Shown here: one piece after another, positions 17,918 to 19,267 of the stretch
Layout: every line of letters begins with the position of its first letter
Numbering within the stretch: the stretch's first letter is position 1
NCBI RefSeq assembly: GCF_001571405.1
Contig: NZ_BCNX01000003.1
Location: forward strand, 124,001 to 188,000
Reading direction: 5' to 3'
DNA length: 64,000 nucleotides
Source: Methanoculleus thermophilus
GTDB taxonomy: Archaea; Halobacteriota; Methanomicrobia; Methanomicrobiales; Methanoculleaceae
Program-made: the position numbers and the translations under genes
The notes under the pieces: model-generated
Told to the model about the DNA's origin: nothing
Databases searched by the model: none
The model's input: only the letters and a program-made list of their open reading frames with translations

Positions 17918-18002
17918 GCGGGGGTTGCCGAGCCAGGTCAAAGGCGCTGGATTTAGGGTCCAGTCTCGCAGGAGTTCAAGGGTTCGAATCCCTTCCCCCG
18001 CA
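17918..18002 (+). tRNA. tRNA-Leu (anticodon TAG)
   Basis: The acceptor stem GCGGGGG 17918-17924 pairs with CCCCCGC 17995-18001, followed by discriminator A. The anticodon arm CTGGA-TTTAGGG-TCCAG shows anticodon TAG. A long variable arm and T arm GGGTTCGAATCCC complete a class II tRNA. CCA is not encoded. Confidence 0.95.
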
Positions 18003-18140: not shown

Positions 18141-18488
18141 CTAACGTCTGGTCTCGTTGAGAATCGACAGGATTTCCTGCTTGAGAATCGGAAGATCATC
18201 GCGCAGGGTCAGGAACACCGCTTCGTAGTCCACGCCGAAGTAATGGTGGACGATCTTATCCCGCATCCCCGCAGCCTCTCTCCAGGGGATCTCCGGGTGC
18301 TCGGCACATAATTCCGGCGATACCATCTTTGCCGCCTCACCAATGATGGTCAGCATGCGCTCGATCCCGGCGCGTTCCAGCCTGTGGTTCCGGAGATCCT
18401 CCGCCGATCCGATGCCCCCGGAGAACTCTTCGATGCTTATTATGGCATCAAGGATATGATGGAGATATGCGAGGTCCTCCGGCGTCAT
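18141..18488 (-). CDS. HepT-like ribonuclease toxin (DUF86/HEPN)
   Basis: This 115-residue helical protein has the HEPN catalytic motif R-x4-H-x-Y as RDKIVHHYF (Arg76, His81, Tyr83), followed by GVDYEAVFLTLRDDLP. HepT proteins cleave RNA unless neutralised by the partner nucleotidyltransferase, which AMPylates the motif tyrosine in characterised pairs. Its start lies 41 bases inside the partner gene. The pair is a type VII toxin-antitoxin module by gene content. Confidence 0.88.
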   Translation of the reverse strand: MTPEDLAYLHHILDAIISIEEFSGGIGSAEDLRNHRLERAGIERMLTIIGEAAKMVSPELCAEHPEIPWREAAGMRDKIVHHYFGVDYEAVFLTLRDDLPILKQEILSILNETRR

Positions 18489-18777
18489 AGATCACCACAG
18501 CATCACGGTAGATTGCATCGGCAAGGTACGGGCTCACGGCGTTCTCGGTGACGAGATCCACCTTCATGCCAAGAGCCCGGGCGAGTTCGTCCTCGATCCG
18601 GACAAGCGAAAAGAGGCTTTTTTTGCGGGCGAATCTGACCAGGATATCGATATCGCTCGCCGGATTGGCGGATCCCCGCGCATAGGAGCCGAAGACCGCG
18701 ATCCACTCGGCATCGTGTCTGGTGAGTATTGAGATGATAGTCTCGCGTGCCGCCCTGGTTAATGTGTGTCCTGTCAT
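18448..18777 (-). CDS. MNT-domain nucleotidyltransferase antitoxin (MntA-like)
   Basis: The 109-residue protein has the minimal nucleotidyltransferase signature GSYARGSANPASDIDILV with Gly30, Ser31 and metal-binding Asp42 and Asp44, and a third acidic position in MKVDLV. In studied pairs it transfers AMP to the HepT tyrosine. It precedes and overlaps hepT. No clear ribosome-binding site or TATA box is seen just upstream; the palindrome array at 19017-19230 is the nearest noticeable upstream element. Confidence 0.85.
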   Translation of the reverse strand: MTGHTLTRAARETIISILTRHDAEWIAVFGSYARGSANPASDIDILVRFARKKSLFSLVRIEDELARALGMKVDLVTENAVSPYLADAIYRDAVVIYDAGGPRISPSYP

Positions 18778-19016
18778 TGCGCCCGACCGTATCTACCGGG
18801 GTAGTATGACGCCCATCCGTATCAGTCTTTTGAGGGGCAACGCGGCTCCGGGGAGAGGAGGTGGCTGAACTCTCCTGAAGATGGGGGCAAAGGCTGGAAA
18901 GCAACGGTGACCCCGGCCTCTATGACGCGATGAAGCGGACGGCGCCGGAGGCGATCGGTCGCAGTACGCAATCGCTGAGGGGGCCGGTTGTGAATACCGG
19001 GTATCTGCAAACGGTT
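18778..19016. other. Non-coding stretch between MNT gene and palindrome array
   Basis: No supported gene is seen. A possible degenerate half-site, TTGTGAATAC, lies near 18988, just before the main array. Confidence 0.3.
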
Positions 19017-19230
19017 TTGTGTATATCAAAACCGATCCGATATACACAAAGTTCGTTGTGTATACCAGAGTATACACAAACCGTACCCCAGGGGTTATGG
19101 GTCACCCATGACCCACAACGGAATTTGTGGGTCACAAAACGCACTATATGACCCACAAAAAAACGTTGTGCGACACAAAATGGGGTTTCATGTCGCACAA
19201 AATCTCTTGTGCGACACCGGCGACGCACAA
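19017..19230. repeat. Three-block array of related palindromic half-sites
   Basis: Twelve half-sites in alternating orientation form three blocks. Block A: TTGTGTATA 19017, TATACACAA 19041, TTGTGTATA 19056, TATACACAA 19071. Block B: TGGGTCA (partial) 19098, TGACCCACAA 19109, TTGTGGGTCA 19125, TGACCCACAA 19149. Block C: TTGTGCGACA 19166, TGTCGCACAA 19191, TTGTGCGACA 19207, CGACGCACAA (degenerate) 19221. Each block has a perfect central dyad CACAA-N6-TTGTG, and only the outer four or five bases differ between blocks, always in matching pairs. It lies between the PAS gene stop and the MNT/HepT pair. Confidence 0.9.
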
Positions 19231-19267
19231 CGACCGGACCTAGGAGTCCCCGGGGAAGATATCCCAC

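Follow-up and report, generated by a model that had tools for sequence, protein, structure and literature searches.

A putative operator array of SoFic-type fic genes, left as an orphan in a Methanoculleus genome

The closest described counterpart of the sequence reported here is the operator of CccR, a Class II Fic protein of Yersinia pseudotuberculosis with a C-terminal HTH, which represses its own gene via 10-bp inverted repeats arranged as AGATAATCAT-N26-ATGATAATCT (PMC9755527). Class II members make up approximately 80% of Fic proteins (PMC9755527). CccR alone was found when the literature on Fic proteins with hsd operons, operators or palindromes was searched. The array family described below shares with it a Fic protein with a DNA-binding C-terminus and inverted 10-bp half-sites adjoining the gene of that protein, autorepression having been measured for CccR; the copy studied here keeps only a remnant of fic. 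The CccR operator is a single pair of another sequence (AGATAATCAT) set 26 bp apart, whereas the arrays comprise 4 to 14 half-sites built on TTGTG and separated by 4, 6 or 14–15, often 3' of fic, and CccR is only distantly related to the array-associated Fic proteins. The fit of its 26-bp gap to a series of 4, 15 and 26 (steps of 11) is suggestive only.

SoFic is a known single-gene anti-phage system (E. coli Sofic, PMC12249575), and SO_4266 of S. oneidensis (PDB 3EQX) is its structural representative in this comparison. The array-associated Fic proteins of relatives contain Fic_N and Fic domains, match the PADLOC SoFic profile with an E-value of 2e-113 and find in 3EQX their best PDB match, with a TM score of 0.81 over the whole length, but they fall below the cut-off of the strict NCBI SoFic equivalog (180 of 550 bits). 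The passages of the E. coli study compared here deal with a small antitoxin (AS1) and auto-inhibition and gave no description of DNA sites. Controller (C) proteins of restriction-modification (R-M) systems offer a further parallel, being regulators encoded with an R-M system whose several operators set the expression of its genes, such as the three operators of the Esp1396I controller (PMC3758141); the regulator here would, in contrast, be a Fic enzyme, and a link of the arrays to R-M control is a conjecture.

The window array and the history of its locus

The window is the whole stretch of DNA analysed, 64,000 nucleotides of Methanoculleus thermophilus (contig NZ_BCNX01000003.1, positions 124,001 to 188,000). 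From 18988 to 19230 it contains 14 half-sites of 10 bp in a chain, paired into seven dyads (H0 to H6) of the form TTGTGnnnnn/n'n'n'n'n'CACAA, of which six are perfect or near-perfect and the seventh, H0, is degenerate. The half-sites, dyads and co-varying outer bases that a first-pass annotation had described are indeed present at this place; its arrangement of twelve half-sites in three blocks consists of real sites, yet it overlooked H0, and the chain is the clearer description. The array and the sequence preceding it are made up as follows.

18883–18975, + strand: 3' remnant of a fic gene (NGDPGLYDAMKRTAPEAIGRSTQSL...), approximately 80% identical in DNA to the intact fic genes that precede the arrays of relatives
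18979–18993, + strand: remnant of the fic stop-codon region, aligned with intact fic 3' ends
18988–19010, unstranded: H0, degenerate dyad TTGTGAATAC-cgg-GTATCTGCAA, lying over the old stop codon
19017–19049, unstranded: H1, dyad TTGTGTATAT/ATATACACAA with a 13-nt loop (15 in relatives)
19056–19079, unstranded: H2, dyad TTGTGTATAC-caga-GTATACACAA
19095–19118, unstranded: H3, dyad TTATGGGTCA-ccca-TGACCCACAA
19125–19158, unstranded: H4, dyad TTGTGGGTCA/TGACCCACAA with a 14-nt loop
19164–19202, unstranded: segment holding the recombination between two ancestral arrays, located by three-way alignment and BLAST, with array 1 of the near relative G033 to its left and array 2 to its right
19166–19200, unstranded: H5, dyad TTGTGCGACA/TGTCGCACAA with a 15-nt loop
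19207–19230, unstranded: H6, dyad TTGTGCGACA-ccgg-CGACGCACAA

The inner gaps of H0 to H6 measure 3, 13, 4, 4, 14, 15 and 4 nt, and successive dyads are separated by spacers of 6, 6, 15, 6, 7 and 6 nt. Thirteen dyads of the array geometry were counted in the array against a mean of 0.052 and a maximum of 2 in 1000 dinucleotide shuffles, while the rest of the 64-kb window has no more than three in any part. Genome-wide, CACAA-N6-TTGTG occurs in five places, three of them inside the array. The outer five bases of the half-sites come in three flavours. Agreement among them (out of 5) averages 4.67 for the two arms of a hairpin, 4.25 for half-sites facing each other over an N6 spacer and 1.30 for hairpins that are not neighbours; the two arms of a dyad thus agree as had been claimed, but neighbours across a spacer do so nearly as well, so that a flavour is common to neighbours and extends beyond the two arms of one dyad.

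The half-sites alternate in inverted orientation, which rules out a CRISPR array or a simple tandem repeat, in agreement with the first-pass annotation. The idea that the array is coding (orfS frame) was dropped because indels between loci shift the frame. A DNA-similarity search of plasmids and phages returned no match.

The history of the locus can be read from its relatives. Intact fic genes there end in GAG GGG GAC CGG TTG TGA, encoding E G D R L and the stop. The window genome (G000, 99.5% complete) gave no match to the Fic domain (PF02661) and nevertheless retains two arrays. G033 has two arrays at a distance of 3 kb, enclosing an Mrr-type nuclease gene and an intact fic. The window is 98% identical to array 1 of G033 over 18442–19240 and follows it up to approximately 19163 (three-way alignment, BLAST); from 19166 on, it is 100% identical to array 2 and the PAS gene behind it. 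The window array is therefore a hybrid of the two arrays that flank the fic segment in G033, and either recombination between these arrays removed the segment or the window represents the site before its gain. It is the scar or the empty site of array-by-array recombination and an orphan in either case, and the absence of both the fic segment and any other Fic gene means that its sites are probably now without a partner. The PAS and HepT/MNT neighbours are incidental. The earlier suggestion of a mosaic interspersed element is accordingly borne out in the literal sense of a recombinant.

Two observations concern the surroundings of the array. The start of the MNT gene (window 18780–18856) has unlinked counterparts with 84–88% identity in many congeneric genomes (G016:C122 and G006:C13, for example). 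A tRNA-Leu gene is located at 17918–18002, approximately 1 kb from the array, and the array of locus L076 also lies near a tRNA-like sequence.

Arrays beside fic genes in the order and across phyla

Absence or scrambling in relatives is not what was seen: of 35 congeneric genomes, 30 gave BLAST matches to homologous sequence or arrays. In most of these genomes the array opens on the stop codon of a gene encoding Fic_N and Fic domains. Three congeneric loci possess the full operon hsdM-fic-[array]-hsdS, with Fic, HsdM and HsdS domains found. A search of the order for the architecture recovered it in 41 of 232 genomes and 13 of 40 genera, with few matches to a reversed control, and the arrays of its other genera and families are again mostly situated behind fic genes or fic remnants. 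Conversely, when fic genes were retrieved by protein, those of this subfamily usually had arrays, and paralogues at 35–40% identity were without them.

The distribution was extended by scanning GTDB genomes for CACAA-N6/7-TTGTG-N14..25-CACAA-N6-TTGTG. The scan returned 93 stretches against a roughly estimated chance expectation of 11, in Planctomycetes, Proteobacteria, Verrucomicrobia, Armatimonadota, Clostridia, Methanosaeta, ANME-2 and others. Although the gap was free to vary from 14 to 25, it peaks at 14, 24 and 25 and, to a lesser extent, at 17. A fic gene lies within 400 bp of 54 of the 73 stretches with a gap of 14, 24 or 25 and of none of the 20 with other gaps, giving p=6e-10, a value that is indicative only because some of the loci are related to each other. 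The array is upstream of fic in 25 of these 54 cases and downstream in 29. The fic loci often hold 4 to 14 half-sites, and their core-to-core gaps are quantised (14 in 62 cases, 24 in 59, 25 in 14, 23 in none, 26 in one), as are the spacers (6 in 60 cases, 7 in seven). HsdR, type III Res, HsdM and RhuM proteins are among those encoded behind 3' arrays. An array of 10-bp TTGTG+5 half-sites, with a 6-bp outward spacer and inward gaps of 4 or 14/15 bp, thus adjoins SoFic-like fic genes, on either their 5' or their 3' side, in many phyla.

The matches with gaps of 17–18 (L139, L145, L152, L166, L197 and others), from Bacteroidales, Cellulomonas and Propionibacterium, have no fic neighbour and are probably unrelated repeat families.

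Could the array be a selfish or neutral palindromic repeat, akin to REP/BIME or MITE elements and spreading by itself? Genomes with several copies, orphans whose dyads are well preserved (G000, L028, L057) and flanks of homogenised appearance are what such an element would produce, and REP/BIME palindromes are likewise short and strung between genes. They are dispersed, however, whereas the arrays are tied to one gene family, keeping in unrelated phyla to the stop codon of fic or to the sequence immediately ahead of its start, and most orphan arrays inspected in the genus and the order still have a fic remnant. Such a repeat is therefore extremely unlikely.

Relatives' arrays have lost hairpins in a modular fashion and contain inverted loops. 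With the arms unchanged, the loop is inverted between relatives in H1 of L042 and in H5 of L026, the latter compared with 19176–19190 of the window. The modular loss and the inversions, together with the recombinant nature of the window array, bring to mind an array of core sites at which a tyrosine recombinase moves or exchanges a cassette of fic and R-M genes. In XerC/XerD dif, two arms of approximately 11 bp surround a 6-bp centre, with an inner CATAA-N6-TTATG. CACAA-N6-TTGTG and its 10-6-10 geometry resemble this core. The arrays differ from dif in their many sites and quantised inward gaps; no recombinase gene was seen with the arrays among the loci read, the homology of two arrays accounts for the exchange without one, and the sites track fic genes of one winged-helix type (see below), which a recombinase would not follow. 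We consider recombination sites very unlikely and retain operators of fic as the preferred reading.

The Fic protein and its winged helix

The association was then viewed from the protein side. So that loci would not be chosen by the pattern, fic genes were collected by protein alone in three groups: one bacterial order, one bacterial phylum and the archaeal order. With exact cores, arrays were present at 12 of 36 close Fic homologues and at none of 36 distant ones, and only the close homologues were enriched in gaps of 14, 24 and 6/7. Allowing one mismatch, all 19 array-bearing fic genes fell in one half of the tree (19/34 vs 0/33), and the array label requires 11 changes on the Fic tree as opposed to 16.9 in shuffles. 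The wing motif of the array-bearing half resembles GxGRRxxxY, that of the other half being mostly EITGxxRYKxY, and it is associated with array presence at p=1.4e-8. Within the fic loci collected by protein, arrays are thus confined to the clade whose C-terminal winged helix is of this one type. An AlphaFold model of an array-associated Fic (pLDDT 92.6) displays this winged helix at the C-terminus, composed of helices 297–306, 312–319 and 323–335 and two wing strands.

Arrays with a TTGTG core could not be detected at 15 of the 34 fic genes of the array clade, two of which, L098 and L100, retain the geometry around a different core. Their arrays, located just behind the fic stop codon, maintain the 6-nt spacers and the 4/15-nt loops around half-sites TTGTACGTAA and TTGTCTGTAA, and the recognition helix of their Fic proteins reads IPYDSG instead of IPKxTA. 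The joint alteration of recognition helix and half-site suggests that the Fic winged helix may read the sites.

Operators of another regulator, such as an R-M controller or a global repressor that happens to govern fic, were also weighed. Nineteen of the 73 well-spaced GTDB stretches, roughly a quarter, have no fic within 400 bp, and some arrays adjoin hsdM or YhcG nuclease genes, at least two being beside a DUF1016/YhcG nuclease. Against this stands the single core that follows the winged-helix type of Fic over many phyla (19/32 vs 0/35), no gene family adjoins the arrays as constantly as fic does, and CccR demonstrates that Fic-HTH proteins bind such repeats. We judge a separate regulator unlikely, and we think it probable that the window array consists of putative operators, that is, DNA binding sites, of a SoFic-type Fic gene. 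Operators were the best supported of the three ideas first proposed for this array, though not as operators for three related regulators: the flavours coexist within single arrays beside one fic gene, which leaves one regulator per flavour without support and points to one kind of protein, a SoFic-type Fic with a C-terminal winged helix.

The same geometry recurs without fic at L163:4402–4457 and L181:1424–1479, beside DUF1016/YhcG-type PDDEXK nuclease genes and, in L181, also hsdM; these ANME-2 and Methanosaeta genomes have a separate fic-plus-array locus. Three plasmid fic genes picked by protein (Novosphingobium, 49% identity; Citrobacter, 33%; Rhodobacter, 37%) have no TTGTG array. On plasmid pEJ01 of Rhodobacter xanthinilyticus (L260), a different inverted repeat, TTGCCTAA...TTAGGCAA, is found just before the start of the fic gene with approximately 37% identity and is perhaps another type of Fic operator.

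DNA sites and their possible mode of action

A chain of RNA hairpins, as entertained in the first-pass annotation, would mean that the array is transcribed with fic as part of a 3' or 5' untranslated region, serving mRNA stability or acting as an antitoxin-like RNA. The constant proximity to fic, often within its operon, would suit such an element, and the window array folds far better than its shuffles (z −8), as would any inverted repeats. Pairing in RNA from one strand should favour G.U, yet on the fic-sense strand the non-Watson-Crick pairs are balanced, with 49 G.T and 42 A.C (p=0.53). In the genus set, G.T and A.C number 21 and 24 at core positions and 32 and 14 at flank positions 6–9, the latter being few events shared by descent. 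Inner loops are tolerated in either orientation (H1 of L042, L026 compared with H5 of the window, L098 and L100), the spacers hold to 6 nt while their sequence varies, and an Rfam search of the window array gave no family at the gathering score, with sub-threshold microRNA matches only. The balance of mismatches, the inverted loops and the retention of spacer length without sequence are the marks of a double-stranded DNA element; the array points to behaviour as DNA rather than RNA, and the hairpin idea is left with very little probability.

The step from an inner gap of 4 nt to one of 14/15 nt equals one helical turn, so that the half-sites stay on the same face of the helix. Fic dimers would then bind neighbouring half-sites on that face via their winged helices. 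Upstream of fic, an array bound in this way would bring about autorepression; with an array that separates fic from a following gene, commonly hsdS, hsdR or res, Fic may set the expression of that gene. Further considerations count against Fic operators: a position 3' of a gene is unusual for an operator, and the agreement of arm flanks together with some reverse-complementary spacers exceeds the requirements of a simple dimer site. When two bacterial upstream arrays were scanned with promoter consensus sequences, the results were at chance level and gave no clear promoter overlap.

A broader scheme, to which we lend somewhat less than even confidence, would be a form of cis-control of SoFic-type defence genes that crosses the domains of life, in which operator arrays are read by the Fic winged helix, upstream arrays mediate autorepression, arrays between fic and a restriction or specificity gene place the R-M operon under Fic control, and array-by-array recombination gains or loses the cassette. 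A site array common to SoFic-type genes of Bacteria and Archaea gives a direct handle on how the toxicity of Class II Fic proteins is controlled, predicting binding sites, autoregulation and cross-talk with R-M operons. It likewise allows fic loci, even lost ones, to be marked from DNA alone, and recombination between its own control arrays would be a route for a defence gene to leave (or enter) a genome.

Finally, two further features were observed in the bacterial and GTDB loci. In L136, L191, L124, L153 and L177 (all bacterial), the 6-nt spacers around a hairpin are mutually reverse-complementary, rendering the whole 56-nt stretch palindromic. At L122:4212–6107, the gene behind a fic array encodes AlbA_2 and HATPase_c_4 fused to Fic-like_C (PF21247), a Fic-type C-terminus on another protein.
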